From contig JAAYVD010000032.1 in the NCBI GenBank assembly GCA_012517355.1, positions 1-64,000 of the forward strand: DNA of 64,000 nucleotides. Reading direction: 5' to 3'. This DNA comes from Candidatus Rifleibacteriota bacterium. Its GTDB lineage: Bacteria; Muiribacteriota; Ozemobacteria; Ozemobacterales; Ozemobacteraceae. Positions 7,114-44,095 of this stretch are shown piece after piece. The position numbers and the translations under genes are program-made. The notes beneath the pieces are model-generated. The model saw only the letters and a program-made list of their open reading frames with translations. It was not told the origin of the DNA and searched no databases. Each line of letters starts with the position of its first letter. The first letter of the stretch is position 1.

Positions 7114-8453
<1,340 letters not shown>

Positions 8454-36864: not shown

Positions 36865-37127
36865 GCGGTTTCTCGGCTCCTATGGGGGCAAAGCCGGCCC
36901 GGGCGTCTCCGGTTCCCGGCCAGGGGCGGGCGTCGTCGGAGGGAAGGGCGCGGCCCGGAAGCCTGGGGCCGCGGCCCTGCTTCCGCCCCGAGGGCTGACG
37001 CCGGGCCGGGGTCGCCCCCCCGGCGTCGCCGCGGATGTCCCTCGGCCCGGTCGGGTCCCCTACCCTACCCCAATCCCACGAGGCTTGCAACCGGCCCTTC
37101 TCTGGGGTACCGTTCCTGGAAGCCACC

Positions 37128-40100
37128 ATGCGCCGTCTCCTGCTGTCACTCGTTGCCGTCCTGCTGCTCGTGCTGCCCTGGGTCATCCTCGATTCCCTCG
37201 ATGCCTGGATGATCGAGGAGCGGGCGGGAGCCGACCTGCGGGCCTGGGAAGGGCGGGCGCGCCAGGTGACCGGGCAGATCCAGGCCTCGCATGCCATCGA
37301 GCGGCAGTGCGAGCGGCAGGCCGACCGGTTCCGCGAGCGGCTGGGCAGCCTGCTGACCCACCTGGGCCGGCGCGGGCTGGCTCCCGAACTGGTGATACGG
37401 GCTGCCAGGGAGATCTTTTCCCACGACCGTTCGGCTCCCGCCATGTACTTGTTCCGGCCCGGCCCCGACCGGGCAGGGAAATGGCAGGCGGTGAAAGGGA
37501 AGGGGCTCGGCACGGTCGCCGCGCCGCTGCTGGGCACCGTGGTGGGAGCCCTGGTGCGGGGCAGCCGCCAGGAGGCGGTGCCGGCCGAGGCCGGTCGCAC
37601 CTTCCGGGGCCTGTTCGGCGACCTGTTGACCATCGACCAGCTGGCGCGGCAGGGCATCGGCCGGGTCTACGCGGCGACCTTCCGCGGGAAGGACGTGTGG
37701 CTCTACTGGAACGTGCTGCGGCCTGGACGGAAGCCGGCGGGCGTGCTTCTGCTGCTGTTTCCCCGGCGCATCGACCTGAGCCCCGAGGAGGAGCTGGGGC
37801 GGTTTCTGCGGAACTGGCGGGCCCGGAGCGGGTTCCCCCTCTTCCTGCGGACCTTCCAAGCCCCAGGGTCCCGCGAACTCCTGGCGCATCCCCGGCTGGC
37901 CGCCCTGCCGGCCTTCCGTGGCCTGGCACCCGCCCTGATCCGGCAGATCCGCGGGTTGCCGCCCGGACGGGCCGGTCGGTTCGGCGACTGGTGGCTGCTT
38001 CGGCAGGGGCTGTCGGGCGACCGGCCCTACGACGTCTGCCTGGTGCGACCCATCCCCGTTCGCGGTCCGACCCTGGCCGGGCGCGGGCGCGCCTGGTATG
38101 GGGGGGGGATGGCCCTGGCGTTGACGCTGGGACTGGGTTGGTGCCTGCGGGCTGGGGCCCTTCCCTCCCCCACCCTGCGCCGCTCGTTCGTCATGCTCCT
38201 GTTGCTGCTGGCCGGCCTGCCCCTGTTCGGCTGCCTCGTCTTCGGGGCGGGGCAGGCGGGCGGCTGGCTGGCCCTGTCCCTGCGGCAGGCCACGGAGGAG
38301 GTCGACGCCTTCTACCAGCGCCTGGACGCGGTGGGCGAGCACCGGAAGGCGCAATACCGCCGGATCGTGGACCGGGACCTGCCCGCCTGGAAGTCCATGG
38401 TGCCGGGCGTCAACGGCGGTTCCCACCTGGACCGGCTGGCCGGGGCCTTCCGGGAGGCGGGGCTGCCCCTGATGGGCATCCTCGTCTTCGACCGGGCGGG
38501 GGGCATCCTGTCCCGGCTGTCGGACAGCCTGGCGCCGGCCGCGGTCCAGTCCCTGATCGACTATTTCCAGGACTGGGCGGTGGGCGGGTTCTCCGAGATT
38601 TCCGGACCGGCGGGTGGGCCCGGCTGGCTGCAGTCGCAGCGGACCCAGATGTTCCAGCACCTCGCCCGGACCCTGAACCCCGATCGGGGCCTGGCCGCCA
38701 TGATCATGTGGCAGCTCGGCATGGCGGAGGCCGTCGTCCTCGAGGACACCCGATTCTACAATCTGCACACCGCCGTGGTCAGGGACGGGACCCTGCAGGC
38801 GTTCATCAACATCCTCTGGCGGGGAGATGCCGACTTCCGCGGGATCCTGCGGGAAGCCGTGGCCCGGCGCAATGCCGGGAGCCCGGCGCACACCTGTGCC
38901 GTGGTGGCGGCGGAACAAGGGGCCCTGGTGCCGGTGGTGCCGCCTGCCAGCTCGGTGTTCTGGCGCACCCCCGCCGGCCGGGCGATGTGGGAGGTGTTCG
39001 AGGGGTTCCGGTTCCGGCGGGCCGCCTTTGCCGGCGTCCGCGGCGGGTTCCACCTGACCGTCGCCCCGAGCGTGACCGCCCCCGGCCTGTTGTTCGGGGG
39101 TGTCGCCCCGCTCGAGCCGTTCCAGGCCGAGGCCCGGCGCCGGCAGTTCCTGCTCGTGGCCTTGCTTTCCCTGCTGACCGTCGGGGTGGCGGGCACCGGC
39201 CTCCTCATCGTCCGGCGGTTCATCGATCCGATCCGGCGTCTGGAGGAGGCCTTGTGGGCGGTCTGCCACGGAGATCTCGGACAGACCCTCGAGCTGAGCG
39301 GGGCCCGCGAATTCGCCGAGGTGTCGGCGACCTTCCAGGACATGGTCGACGGCTTGCGGGAGCGCCGCAACCTGGGACGGTTCGTCTCGGGGGCCCTCGC
39401 CGGGGGCGGCCTGGCCGGAGGAAGCCTCGCCGGTGGGAGTCTGGCCGGCGGAAGCCTGGCCGGCGGCGGATTCGGGGGCGACGGGCGGGCGGGAGGTGGC
39501 GGTCTGCCCGGGGTCGGCCTCGCCGCGCCGGCGGGCCGTCGCCACAGCGTGCGGCGGCGAGGGACCGTCCTGGTGTCGGACATCCGGCGGTTCACGACCT
39601 TGTCGGAGAGGCATCCGGTCGACCAGGTCGTGTCGATGCTGAACCGGCACCTCGACGCCCTGGCCCGGGAAGTCCACGCCCGGGGCGGGTTCGTCGACAA
39701 GTTCATCGGGGACGCCATGGTGGCGGTCTTCTTTGCGGAAGAAGCGGCGGGGGTGCCGGGGCCTTCGGTTCCCGGCCAGGCCGCCGGGGTGGTGGCCGCC
39801 CTGGATGCCGCCGGGCCGTCGCACGTCCGGCGGGCGATGGCGGCCGCCTGGGCCATGCGGCAGACGGGGCTGGCCATCGTGGCGGAGCGTGAGGCGGCGG
39901 GCCAGTTCTCCTACGAATTCGGCATCGGGCTGGCCACCGGGGAGCTGGTCAGCCTGACCATCGGATTGGCCCTGGAACGTTCGGAGCACCAGGTGTTGGG
40001 ATTCCCGGTCCAGCGGGCCGAGGTGCTGGAAGGGCTGTCGAAACAGGCCACCCGGACCAGGATCGTCGTCGACCGTTCGGTGGTCAGCGCCTGTCCGGAA

Positions 40101-40268
40101 TTCGCCTTCGCGGCGCTGCCGTTCGTCGAAACCTGGGAGGTGACCGGCCCGGCCGATCCCGGGGGGCCGGGGCCGGGGCGGGGCGCTTCGTCCGCGCCGG
40201 AACCGGCGGGGCCCGCCGCGCCAGGCCAGGCCTCAGCCCCAGGGATGCGCGGGGAGGATGACCGATGA
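37128..40268 (+). CDS. membrane class III nucleotide cyclase, C1-like half (metal aspartates present, Asn/Arg absent)
   Basis: The 1046 residues comprise TM1 (about 4-22), a large exterior domain, TM2/TM3 (about 325-377), a second exterior domain, TM4 (about 672-697), HAMP (about 697-750), a glycine-rich linker (about 756-798) and a class III cyclase domain (about 805-1020). Both metal-binding aspartates are present, D818 in VSDIRRF and D862 in FIGDAM, at the classical 44-residue spacing. The transition-state pair is missing: where active cyclases have V-N-x-x-x-R this protein has V-Q962-x-x-x-V966, and the base-contact Thr/Asp position is Q955. It therefore looks unable to cyclise alone. Its stop overlaps the start of the complementary gene downstream (ATGA-type overlap). 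ATG 37128 gives the first TM helix. Confidence 0.82.
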   Translation: MRRLLLSLVAVLLLVLPWVILDSLDAWMIEERAGADLRAWEGRARQVTGQIQASHAIERQCERQADRFRERLGSLLTHLGRRGLAPELVIRAAREIFSHDRSAPAMYLFRPGPDRAGKWQAVKGKGLGTVAAPLLGTVVGALVRGSRQEAVPAEAGRTFRGLFGDLLTIDQLARQGIGRVYAATFRGKDVWLYWNVLRPGRKPAGVLLLLFPRRIDLSPEEELGRFLRNWRARSGFPLFLRTFQAPGSRELLAHPRLAALPAFRGLAPALIRQIRGLPPGRAGRFGDWWLLRQGLSGDRPYDVCLVRPIPVRGPTLAGRGRAWYGGGMALALTLGLGWCLRAGALPSPTLRRSFVMLLLLLAGLPLFGCLVFGAGQAGGWLALSLRQATEEVDAFYQRLDAVGEHRKAQYRRIVDRDLPAWKSMVPGVNGGSHLDRLAGAFREAGLPLMGILVFDRAGGILSRLSDSLAPAAVQSLIDYFQDWAVGGFSEISGPAGGPGWLQSQRTQMFQHLARTLNPDRGLAAMIMWQLGMAEAVVLEDTRFYNLHTAVVRDGTLQAFINILWRGDADFRGILREAVARRNAGSPAHTCAVVAAEQGALVPVVPPASSVFWRTPAGRAMWEVFEGFRFRRAAFAGVRGGFHLTVAPSVTAPGLLFGGVAPLEPFQAEARRRQFLLVALLSLLTVGVAGTGLLIVRRFIDPIRRLEEALWAVCHGDLGQTLELSGAREFAEVSATFQDMVDGLRERRNLGRFVSGALAGGGLAGGSLAGGSLAGGSLAGGGFGGDGRAGGGGLPGVGLAAPAGRRHSVRRRGTVLVSDIRRFTTLSERHPVDQVVSMLNRHLDALAREVHARGGFVDKFIGDAMVAVFFAEEAAGVPGPSVPGQAAGVVAALDAAGPSHVRRAMAAAWAMRQTGLAIVAEREAAGQFSYEFGIGLATGELVSLTIGLALERSEHQVLGFPVQRAEVLEGLSKQATRTRIVVDRSVVSACPEFAFAALPFVETWEVTGPADPGGPGPGRGASSAPEPAGPAAPGQASAPGMRGEDDR

Positions 40269-43200
40269 CCAGGATGCCCGCCCGTGGCTGGCAGGGGTTC
40301 CTCACCGGCCTGCTGTTCCTGCTTCCCTTCCTCGTGGTCCATGTCTCCATGGACCTGACGGAGCAGGAGGAAGCCGCCGAGCGGTTCCGGGAGACCGAAC
40401 AGGCCAACCTGACCGACCTGGACCGGGTGACGCGGTCCCTGACCCCCGCCCATTTCCTCGGCACCGCCCTCAAGCACCTGGAGTTCCGGCTGGCCACCGG
40501 GATCCGGGCCCGGCTGGCGGCGGGCCGGCCGCCCTCGCCGGGGGACCTGCGAACGATGGTGGAATCGGCCATGGACGGCCCCGAAGGCGTGGTGATCCGG
40601 CGGTTCGGGGCCGAACTGGTGGTGGTCCGGAGCGACCGGGCGGGGACGGCCGGCGCGGGGGGCGGCCACCAGGTCGTCTGGCGGGAAGGGGCAGCCCGGG
40701 GGCTGCAGGACCTCCCCGCCGAGGCCTTCGACTACCTGCTCGAACCCGGGCAGACCGGCCCGGAGGGGGCGGCGCGAGTGGAGGTCGCCTTCCGGCGGCT
40801 GATGGGCTTTCCGGTGGTGGTGAACGCGTTCCGGGACCGGTGCTGGGGGGCCTGCGGGGAGTACACCAACGAGCACGGCACCTGGGGCTTCTTCTGGGAA
40901 GAGGTCCCGCTGCCGCCCGGCGCGCCTGACCGGCTGCTGGTGACGGCGCGGGCCAGCCTGCTGGGCCTGGGTGAACGGGTCCGGTGGCGGCTGGCGACGC
41001 TCCTGTGGGACTCCTGGGACGGGGACGGCCCCTCGGCGGACGGCCCCCCGGTGGTGCGCGACAGCGGGGTTTCGCGCGGCCCTCCGCGGCGGCAGCGGGG
41101 AAGCCCTTCCGACCTGGGGCCGGCCGCCCCCGGGGCGTTGCGTCAGGCTGGCGCCGGGCGCGGGGCTCCATCCCCGCAAGCGCCACCGACCACCCTCGTG
41201 TCGGCCTCGACCGGTGGGGTCCGGCGGGACGGAGCCGCCCTGGCCATCCTGCCGGGCGGCGGGCAGGGGACGGCCGTCCTGTCGAACACCTGGCGCCGGT
41301 CGGAGGCCCTGCGCGGCTGGCGGCGGGGGGACCTGCCGGCCCCGGGGGCCAGCGCCGTGGTCGGCGGTGGCCACCTGGTCACCCGGCAGGCGGATCCCGA
41401 CGGCGGGGCGGGTTCCCTCGTCCTCGCCCGGCCGTTGCCGCCGGGGCGCAGCCCGCTCTTCCGGGCCGTCCGGCTGGCCGCTTCTTTCGTCTACGTGGCC
41501 CTGGTGGTGCTCGGGGTCGTCCAGTTGATCCTGTTCGAGCGTCGCCAGGCCCTTCCCCTGCGGCTGCTGTTCGGCCTGCTCTTTTTGCTGGCGGTCCTGA
41601 CGCCCCTGACCGGGGTCTACCACCTGGCCTCACGGCAGGTGGGGCAGACCTTCCGGGAAGACCAGAAATCGGCCCGCGACGCCCTTCGCCGGCGGTTCAA
41701 GGAGATCGACGACGGGCAGACCGAGCACTCGGCTGGGGTGATGAGCATCCTGCAACGGGCCTTGCAGGCCCCCTCCTTCCTCGCGCAGGTGCGGGCGGGC
41801 GAGGACGAGTGGCGCCGGACGGGGCGGGGGCGTCGGCTGGGGGCCCTGTTGCAGGGGTTCTTCCGGCGGATCCGGAATCCCGACCATCCCATCCACCGGC
41901 TGCCCGACGGCACCCTGGTTCCCCTTTCCCGGGTGCTCGGGTTCTTCCTGGTGGGGCCCGACCGGCTCGCCGAATTCCAGAACAACGAACGGATCCCCAC
42001 GTCCGTCGATATCCGGAAGTTCTTCGAGGTGATCGGCCAGCGGGCCCTCGAGGTCCGCAACCCGGCCCTGCGGCGGGAGGGCCCTGCCCGACCGCCCGGC
42101 CGGGTCGACCGGGCGGCGATGCTCCTGGAATACGGCAGCCAGATGCTGATCAACCTGGCCGGTTACGAGGCGTTCCTCGACCTGGTCTACAAGCCGTCCA
42201 GCCTGGTGGCGGCGCGGGTCGGGGCCGTCCGGCAGACCTTCTTCCAGACGACGCTGCGGATCGACGGGGTCGCGCGGTTCGTGGCGCTGCTGGTCTGGCT
42301 GGAGATGGACCAGGACCACCCCTACCTGTTGATGGCGATGCAGAGCCCGTTGCGGCCGGGGGAACCGGTGGTCTACCCCGTCGACCGCATGAACCGCACC
42401 TTCCTCGCCGCCCCCCCCGACCTGCCCGTGCCGATCCGGGAGGCTGCCTTCCAGGCTCTGGAGACCGGCCTTCCGGTCAGCTCGTTCGACCGGCGGACCG
42501 GGCTGCTGGTGGAAGCCGCCCCCTGCCGGAACCTGAACCGGCACGTGCTGGTCGGCTCGCAGCCGATCGCCCCGCTGGTGGAGAGGATGACGGCGGGGCG
42601 CCGGCGGTTCTGGCTGGGCCTGGCGGTGGTGGTCGGCCTGGCGGTCCTGAGCGCGGCGGGAGGGGCGGCCGTGTTCCTGTTGCCCCTGCAGGCCATCGTC
42701 CGGGCCTTCCGGGCGGTCAGGGAGGGGCGGTTCGAAACCCGGCTCGAGCTGCGGGAACGGGACGAGTTCGGGTCGGTGGCGGAGGCATTCAACGCCCTGG
42801 CCCAGGGCCTGCAGGAAGGGCGGCTGTTGGGGCGGTTCGTCTCGGAACCGGTGCGCCAGGCGGCCCGCGCCGGCAACCTGGAGATGCTGGCGGGGGCGGC
42901 GCGGGAGATCGAGACGACCGTGGTCTTCGCGGGGCTGGGCGGGTTCGAGGAGGTCCGGCGGGTGGCGCCCGTCGACGAGCTGGCGGCCATCCTGGAGGAC
43001 CACCTGGAGATCGCCAGCCGCGCGGCCGCCCGGGCGGGCGGCGAGATCGACAAGCTGTTCGGGGAGAAGATCATGGTGGTGTTCGACCATCAGCGGTTCG
43101 ACCACCCGGCGCAGGCGGCGCGCGCGGCCCTGGCCTTTGCCCGCGAGGTGCGCGGCGCGTTCGGGGGTCACGGGCGGCTGCGGCAGCTGAGCGCCAAGAT

Positions 43201-43474
43201 CGGCATCAACAGCGGGCCGGCCCTGCTGGGCTTCCTCGGCTCGCCGGCGGTGCGGCTGGACCACACCGTCATCGGCGACACCGTCAACCTGGCCTCGCGC
43301 CTGGCCAGCCTCGCCCACACCCTGCCCGGCGGGCAGATCGTGGTGGCCGGCCAGACCCTGGCCCTGGCCGGCGAGACCGGGCAGCCCCGGCCGCTCGCCG
43401 TGCGGCAGGTGCGGGGCAAGACCCGGCAGGTCGAGGTTTTCCAACTTGATGGCCGATCGGGAGCGGCCGGCTGA
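40265..43474 (+). CDS. membrane class III nucleotide cyclase, C2-like half (Asn/Arg present, metal aspartates absent)
   Basis: The 1069 residues have the same topology as the upstream paralogue: TM1 (about 11-28), exterior domain, TM2/TM3 (about 405-453), exterior domain, TM4 (about 782-808), HAMP (about 805-860) and cyclase domain (about 882-1062). Here both metal aspartates are gone: G890 in VFAGLGGF and E934 in LFGEKIM, again 44 residues apart. The base-contact and transition-state side is intact: K930 (IDKLFG), T1001 (HTVIG), N1008 and R1012 (TVNLASR). It should supply the second half of an active site shared with the upstream product. The K/T pair suggests ATP as substrate, by analogy with bacterial adenylate cyclases. 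The 4-bp overlap with the first gene suggests equal synthesis. Confidence 0.82.
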   Translation: MTRMPARGWQGFLTGLLFLLPFLVVHVSMDLTEQEEAAERFRETEQANLTDLDRVTRSLTPAHFLGTALKHLEFRLATGIRARLAAGRPPSPGDLRTMVESAMDGPEGVVIRRFGAELVVVRSDRAGTAGAGGGHQVVWREGAARGLQDLPAEAFDYLLEPGQTGPEGAARVEVAFRRLMGFPVVVNAFRDRCWGACGEYTNEHGTWGFFWEEVPLPPGAPDRLLVTARASLLGLGERVRWRLATLLWDSWDGDGPSADGPPVVRDSGVSRGPPRRQRGSPSDLGPAAPGALRQAGAGRGAPSPQAPPTTLVSASTGGVRRDGAALAILPGGGQGTAVLSNTWRRSEALRGWRRGDLPAPGASAVVGGGHLVTRQADPDGGAGSLVLARPLPPGRSPLFRAVRLAASFVYVALVVLGVVQLILFERRQALPLRLLFGLLFLLAVLTPLTGVYHLASRQVGQTFREDQKSARDALRRRFKEIDDGQTEHSAGVMSILQRALQAPSFLAQVRAGEDEWRRTGRGRRLGALLQGFFRRIRNPDHPIHRLPDGTLVPLSRVLGFFLVGPDRLAEFQNNERIPTSVDIRKFFEVIGQRALEVRNPALRREGPARPPGRVDRAAMLLEYGSQMLINLAGYEAFLDLVYKPSSLVAARVGAVRQTFFQTTLRIDGVARFVALLVWLEMDQDHPYLLMAMQSPLRPGEPVVYPVDRMNRTFLAAPPDLPVPIREAAFQALETGLPVSSFDRRTGLLVEAAPCRNLNRHVLVGSQPIAPLVERMTAGRRRFWLGLAVVVGLAVLSAAGGAAVFLLPLQAIVRAFRAVREGRFETRLELRERDEFGSVAEAFNALAQGLQEGRLLGRFVSEPVRQAARAGNLEMLAGAAREIETTVVFAGLGGFEEVRRVAPVDELAAILEDHLEIASRAAARAGGEIDKLFGEKIMVVFDHQRFDHPAQAARAALAFAREVRGAFGGHGRLRQLSAKIGINSGPALLGFLGSPAVRLDHTVIGDTVNLASRLASLAHTLPGGQIVVAGQTLALAGETGQPRPLAVRQVRGKTRQVEVFQLDGRSGAAG

Positions 43475-43550: not shown

Positions 43551-43823
43551 CTACTTTGCGGGGTGGTCGTCGAGGCCGACCTTGACCACCTTGGCGTTGA
43601 CGTCAGGCAGCAGCGAGATCTTGCGGAACAGTTCGTCCTTCTTGTCTTCGGCGCCGATCAGCTCGAGGACGATCAGGCCGACGTCGGACTGGGCGTCGGG
43701 GGTCCCGTCGTGGATGCCCAGGCGGGTCTTGATGAGGTGGCCCCACCCCGTCAGCACCTTCTGCACGCTGACGGCGGTGTCCTTGCGCTTGCCGACGAGG
43801 ATGATCATGACGGTCTTTTCCAT
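43551..43823 (-). CDS. small TM1266/ACT-like regulator protein
   Basis: The 90-residue protein has a betaalphabetabetaalphabeta pattern: MEKTVMIILVGKRKDTA, a helix, GHLIKTRLGIHDG, VGLIVLELIG, a helix and ALVKVGL-like ending (NAKVVKVGLD). This resembles the TM1266 family (ferredoxin-like fold, related to the NikR C-terminal and ACT domains), whose genes often accompany FeFe-hydrogenase maturation genes. No hydrogenase gene is in view. ATG 43823 has GGAGG 7 bp upstream; the longer open frame upstream is spurious. It has its own promoter and is a single-gene unit. Confidence 0.6.
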   Translation of the reverse strand: MEKTVMIILVGKRKDTAVSVQKVLTGWGHLIKTRLGIHDGTPDAQSDVGLIVLELIGAEDKKDELFRKISLLPDVNAKVVKVGLDDHPAK

Positions 43824-43851
43824 GGGGCCCTCCGGTTGCAGGTTTGCGGGA

Positions 43852-43880
43852 AGTATACCCTTCCCTGCCGCGAGAGGCAA
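43852..43880 (-). promoter_or_regulatory. sigma-70-type promoter of the TM1266-like gene
   Basis: Minus strand: TTGCCT (43880-43875), a 17-bp spacer and TATACT (43857-43852), 28 bp before ATG 43823. Confidence 0.65.
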
Positions 43881-44095
43881 CCAGGGCGGATGGCCAACAG
43901 GAATTCCCGCCCAGCGCTCCCATGCTTTTCTGCTGAACAGTGACTTTCGCAGGCCCTGGCCCACTCGACGAGTCAGACCGAAGGAGCCCGGAGAACCGCT
44001 GCAGCGGCCATGGTGAGAGTTGCTGGATGGCCAGCTGCCCGCGATGTTCACGGGAAGGCCGGAAAGACCTCGGTGGGTTTGGGGGGGGGCTGGCG

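Follow-up and report, generated by a model that had tools for sequence, protein, structure and literature searches.

In class III nucleotide cyclases, the active site is built by two subunits, one of which binds the metals while the other provides an Asn/Arg pair, and the presence of Lys/Thr at the adenine-reading positions predicts ATP as the substrate and cAMP as the product. The mammalian transmembrane adenylyl cyclases ADCY1-9 join two homologous membrane-cyclase halves, C1 with the metal-binding Asp pair and C2 with the base-reading residues and Asn/Arg, and only one of their two sites is live, the other being dead. A heterodimeric or tandem class III core with one site is also found in ADCY10, the soluble adenylyl cyclase, and in soluble guanylyl cyclase alpha/beta, although these enzymes are eukaryotic and soluble and have unrelated sensor parts. 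The class IIIb enzymes CyaC (Arthrospira/Spirulina), CyaB (Pseudomonas, Anabaena), bPAC and OaPAC, which carry the Lys/Thr pair and include HAMP-linked forms, are homodimers with two identical complete sites. The membrane class III cyclase Rv1625c/Cya of Mycobacterium tuberculosis has served as a stand-in for the ancestor of the mammalian enzymes (PMC9433096, PMC9552081); it is a homodimer with 6 transmembrane segments (TM), and shows neither duplication nor half-site loss. According to a 2022 review, bacterial class III cyclases homodimerise and no fused dimeric form is known from bacteria; the advantage of such a form was posed there as a question (PMC9552081). Beyond that review, a search of the open-access literature returned nothing on bacterial heterodimeric class III cyclases.

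Here we analysed a window of 64,000 nucleotides from a Candidatus Rifleibacteriota bacterium, in which two plus-strand genes encode the putative partners of such an enzyme: p1 (37128..40268, 1046 aa), the C1-type partner with the metal-binding half-site, and p2 (40265..43474, 1069 aa), the C2-type partner with the substrate/transition-state half-site. An earlier note, made from the letters of this DNA, had described a common layout of four TM, two exterior domains, HAMP and a class III cyclase domain, together with a 4-bp gene overlap; Pfam and hydropathy analysis agreed on this layout for both proteins, and the overlap was found as ATGA at 40265-40268. In p1, TM1 (37137..37193) precedes exterior domain 1 (37194..38105, about 304 aa), which lacks a Pfam match and whose homologue in the C2 partners is likewise their exterior domain 1. 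It is followed by the TM2-TM3 hairpin (38106..38243), whose TM2 was detected only with a lowered hydropathy threshold, exterior domain 2 (38244..39155, about 304 aa), TM4 (39156..39212), the HAMP domain (39204..39362; PF00672, E=1.1e-6) and the C1-type cyclase domain (39564..40088). The HAMP-cyclase linker of p1 (39363-39560) contains Gly/Ala-rich, LAGGS-like repeats where a conserved linker is usual. The p1 reading frame could also start at an in-frame ATG upstream, at 37035, adding 31 aa. The order is the same in p2, with TM1 at 40298..40354, exterior domain 1 at 40355..41482 (about 376 aa), the TM2-TM3 hairpin at 41483..41623, exterior domain 2 at 41624..42628 (about 335 aa), TM4 at 42629..42685, HAMP at 42677..42817 (PF00672, E=1.4e-10) and the C2-type cyclase domain at 42911..43417 (PF00211, E=4e-11). 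Codon-position composition, with high GC3 in both ORFs, supported the coding status of p1 and p2. The genes form a free-standing two-gene unit bordered by minus-strand genes: those for a pseudouridine synthase and ribosomal S9/L13 lie on one flank, and a helicase gene and a small gene lie on the opposite one. A small minus-strand gene at 43551-44051 gave a sub-threshold match to PF21699, a family of iron-only hydrogenase regulators.

Both cyclase domains matched the PF00211 profile, with 23.4 bits for p1 and 43.3 bits for p2 against a cut-off of 21.9, and both gave confident AlphaFold models with the class III fold. Their closest relatives in sequence and fold are the catalytic domains of CyaC, CyaB, bPAC and OaPAC, and CyaC is the nearest solved structure to the p1 domain. 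In p1, the two metal-binding aspartates are kept, D818 (39579..39581) and D862 (39711..39713), while the catalytic Asn and the transition-state Arg are lost, their positions being taken by Q962 (40011..40013) and V966 (40023..40025). In p2, the first metal Asp is lost to G890 (42932..42934) and the second is changed to E934 (43064..43066), whereas the base-recognising K930 (43052..43054), the catalytic N1008 (43286..43288), the transition-state R1012 (43298..43300) and T1001 (43265..43267), the adenine-specifying Thr of the class IIIb type, are all present. All ten residues, and the spacings of 44 between the Asp positions in both proteins and of 4 between Asn and Arg, were as the earlier note had given them. 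Misalignment was checked with pairwise alignments to solved cyclases, in which Q962/V966 fell at the positions of the catalytic Asn/Arg and G890/E934 at those of the metal Asp pair. Neither protein has all six catalytic residues that each subunit of a homodimer carries. The two genes might nevertheless encode two separate homodimers, in which unusual residues stand in for the lost ones, and the K858 retained by p1 and the Glu on the second metal position of p2 could be read in that way. Against this, the alignments to solved structures revealed no other Asn/Arg or Asp that would take over these positions, a full residue set allowing a complete homodimeric site was found in only 1 of the 200 paired domains of the family described below, and intact single-gene cyclases of the same genomes keep all six residues; we consider two homodimers extremely improbable.

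The genome of the window contains 87 class III cyclase domains (PF00211). Of these, 57 make up 28 pairs of the window type, one locus having an extra C1, and the pairs are encoded by two genes in 16 cases and by a single ORF in 12. The fused ORFs are about 2,000-2,700 aa long and contain two cyclase domains (1,632 aa where a contig end cuts one). Pairs were also present in relatives of the same genus, of the same family and of one other family of the phylum. We assembled a set of 100 pairs, 64 split and 36 fused, from seven genomes and two public Riflebacteria MAGs, corrected for automatic mis-pairings at loci L134, L022 and L051; most of these pairs lie in draft assemblies, and as many of them are orthologous to one another or recently duplicated paralogues, the set does not represent 100 independent events. 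The order was C1-C2 in 80/100 pairs, including all the fused ones, and C2-C1 in the other 20. A profile search with C1 over 40 genomes of the phylum, in which only the best matches are informative as the profile also detects ordinary cyclases, showed that the majority of genomes from the window's family have ORFs of about 2,000 aa, and no adjacent or fused pairs were found, by position, in three other sampled families (G024, G025, G036). In a named genome collection, all 76 cyclases from outside the phylum were intact, and the split type appeared only in Candidatus Riflebacteria, as a fused ORF (JADFYG010000006.1) and a pair (JADFXM010000040.1). The possibility that the fusions are assembly artefacts was ruled out, since genomes of high and of low GC content have them, as does a public MAG; in the AT-rich genomes, an open frame of 2,000 aa cannot be due to chance.

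Several loci had particular arrangements. At L035 (G000:C41:1-9000), a C2 ORF within the clade of fused proteins is cut to 337 aa, possibly by a frameshift, an assembly error or pseudogene formation. L182 (G030:C9:190500-210400), from another family of the phylum, contains three near-alike tandem C2-C1 pairs, a recent local amplification. In addition, two genomes encode, near an intact cyclase, a short protein resembling cyclases whose six positions read DADNNA (L040, G000:C166:72680-73111, and L219).

The earlier note had proposed a search of related genomes for whether the losses of the two partners are always reciprocal. With a complete composite site defined as two Asp from C1 plus Lys, Thr, Asn and Arg from C2, exactly one such site was found in 100/100 pairs, as in the C1/C2 halves of ADCY1-9. 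When the 200 domains were re-paired at random, a mean of 51/100 pairs and a maximum of 71 in 20,000 trials were complete. Both metal Asp were present in 100/100 C1 domains, and in C2 domains, Lys, Asn and Arg were found in 100/100 and Thr in 99/100. In agreement, the entropy of the metal Asp columns over the 100 pairs was 0 bits in C1 vs. 2.5 and 1.8 in C2, whereas that of the Lys, Asn and Arg columns was 0 bits in C2 vs. 1.8, 3.5 and 3.2 in C1, and that of the Thr column was 0.08 in C2 vs. 2.6 in C1. Near-zero entropy in the partner that uses a residue, with high entropy in the other, points to selection on one shared site, not to decay. Of the expected losses, one live and one broken site proved universal, but the loss of all four residues did not, as the second metal Asp was kept in 58/100 C2 domains and the Arg in 14/100 C1 domains. 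The window pair is typical of the set apart from the Glu at the second metal position of its C2 domain. These data also bear on whether p1 and p2 are dead pseudo-cyclases, that is, receptor paralogues that have lost catalysis and signal in some other way or are decaying. Each protein alone lacks residues thought essential, and the exterior domains diverge fast, as such a fate would have it; however, the losses are non-random, the complementary half is invariant in the 100 pairs, even within one genome, whose 28 paralogue pairs share a median identity of 36-39%, and decay would not be expected to yield exactly one composite site in every pair. Dead pseudo-cyclases are thus very unlikely, and a shared live site is the reading we retain.

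Three pairs were real exceptions to the pattern by one or two residues, each still having one complete site. The C2 domains of L156 and L199 keep the first Asp, and the C1 half of the second fused ORF of L159, which has 2054 aa and starts near 7880 on the plus strand, keeps all six positions, so its C1 domain could in principle homodimerise, judging from its residues. L159 is unique among the fused proteins in this respect, and might be a reversion or an early stage. Two further loci that had seemed odd were discarded as mis-pairings, L134 with an adjoining unrelated cyclase and L022 within a C1-C1-C2 triplet. We also looked for a pair-type gene occurring alone, the finding that had been expected to speak against the heterodimer, and none was seen among the domains read from the window's genome. 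Of the 62 domains in these genomes that automatic pairing had left single, 52 retain both metal Asp as well as Asn and Arg; the other ten comprise two true pair members (L022, L134), one domain clipped at the locus end (L185) and seven that are degenerate or of other architecture. L038 (G000:C112) and L145 (G001:C29) were taken up as lone C2 domains and rejected as counter-examples because they are a different protein, with one sensor, HAMP, a degenerate C2-like cyclase and then HEAT-like repeats recognised by eye; it is probably a pseudo-cyclase signalling protein.

In a tree built with the six catalytic columns masked, C1 formed one clade (SH-aLRT 91-94), and C2 was compatible with a single clade (AU p 0.74, the tree constrained in this way being at least as good as the free one). 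In one tree, three sub-clades, of 5, 11 and 17 pairs, were recovered with identical membership among the C1 and among the C2 domains, and the 5-pair sub-clade shifted in a second tree built with other rows. The C1 and C2 distances mirrored each other, with r = 0.73 for all pairs (permutation maximum 0.16) and 0.68 for the 28 pairs of the window's genome (permutation maximum 0.36), which excludes frequent partner exchange, part of the mirror being due to linkage. This is relevant to the idea that the subunits are promiscuous and any C1 can join any C2 across the 28 pairs of a cell, as a combinatorial receptor array. All catalytic domains belong to one family, and L022 (G000:C20:6000-24000) is a three-gene run, C1-C1-C2, as if one partner served two metal subunits, both of which suit this idea. 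Fixed partners are favoured instead by the mirrored histories, with no partner swaps between the three main sub-clades, although linkage alone could also produce a mirror; by the 36 pairs tied by fusion; and by the 36/65 split junctions at which the downstream gene can start at a 4-base overlap. Promiscuous pairing appears unlikely, and we continue with dedicated partners.

Profile comparisons of the main groups matched exterior domain 1 of C1 with domain 1 of C2, and domain 2 with domain 2, with probabilities of 97-98%, and this homology in matching order indicates that the whole receptor was duplicated. Moreover, seven intact single-gene 4-TM cyclases were found (L045 in the window's genome, L163, L176 and L222-L225, the TM1 of L225 lying beyond the contig end), whose exterior domains match those of the pairs in the same order. 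These are candidate survivors of the homodimeric ancestor. On the sampled tree, the fusion state requires at least three changes. One genome would therefore seem to hold homodimer, split heterodimer and fused pseudo-heterodimer forms side by side.

The window pair uses the logic of mammalian C1 and C2 but stands outside the ADCY family by its membrane part and subclass. Each half is built from 4 TM, HAMP and two large exterior domains, where a half of ADCY1-9 has 6 TM; the adenine position has Thr, of the class IIIb type, and not Asp; and the system is bacterial, many pairs still being separate genes, some of them in the order C2-C1. The window pair is made of two polypeptides, while 36/100 pairs of the family, 12 paralogues in the window's genome among them, are single-chain like ADCY1-9. 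It differs from the class IIIb homodimers in having a half-site per subunit. The different membrane part, the Thr subclass and the intact 4-TM relatives point to an origin independent of the eukaryotic split, and from its sequences the family looks like an independent bacterial counterpart of the mammalian transmembrane adenylyl cyclase.

Collectively, the sequence data support the C1/C2-type heterodimer that the earlier note had read in this locus, and the phenomenon is much larger than it had described. We consider it highly likely that p1 serves as C1 and p2 as C2 in a single membrane receptor adenylyl cyclase predicted to need the heterodimer, and that duplication, complementary loss, expansion and fusion shaped the family. 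Because the metals and the Asn/Arg of the live site have to come from different proteins, p1 has to meet p2, and we infer that the two would form a physical, active heterodimer. C1 would give the two metal-binding aspartates to this site, and C2 would give Lys/Thr to read adenine and Asn/Arg to stabilise the transition state, with the mirror-image second site predicted to be dead. Each subunit would relay exterior signals from its own two domains to the dimer by way of TM4 and HAMP, so that four exterior domains, two per subunit, may tune one active site. No Pfam family was found for these domains in 28 proteins, the AlphaFold models of whole proteins were of low confidence in the exterior domains and poor everywhere but in HAMP and cyclase, and a Cache-like reading of the strand/helix pattern was not adopted on these grounds. 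The earlier suggestion that two stimuli could be integrated is, for us, a guess. The predicted cAMP would be made for the roughly 20 cNMP-binding proteins of the genome, in which 24 cNMP-binding domains were found as possible readers. As to the origin, a homodimeric 4-TM receptor cyclase would have undergone whole-gene duplication and complementary half-site loss, followed by expansion to 28 pairs in the window's genome, and in 12 of them the two genes would have merged into a single ORF for an 8-TM pseudo-heterodimer with the mammalian type of domain logic.

On a broader scale, bacteria probably invented pseudo-heterodimers in the style of transmembrane adenylyl cyclases independently, kept the homodimer, split and fused stages in one genome and expanded them to a 28-receptor array; each receptor may integrate several exterior domains at one site, and its dead site is possibly regulatory. 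The origin of the two-part adenylyl cyclase of mammals is a long-standing question; the same steps seem to have been taken by one bacterial lineage, with each of them still alive in one genome. Since the homodimer, the split pair and the fused chain of one family can be compared, the advantage of the fused form would become testable in terms of activity, number of inputs and role of the dead site, and for engineering, the pairs may offer naturally occurring receptors that combine several inputs with a single output.
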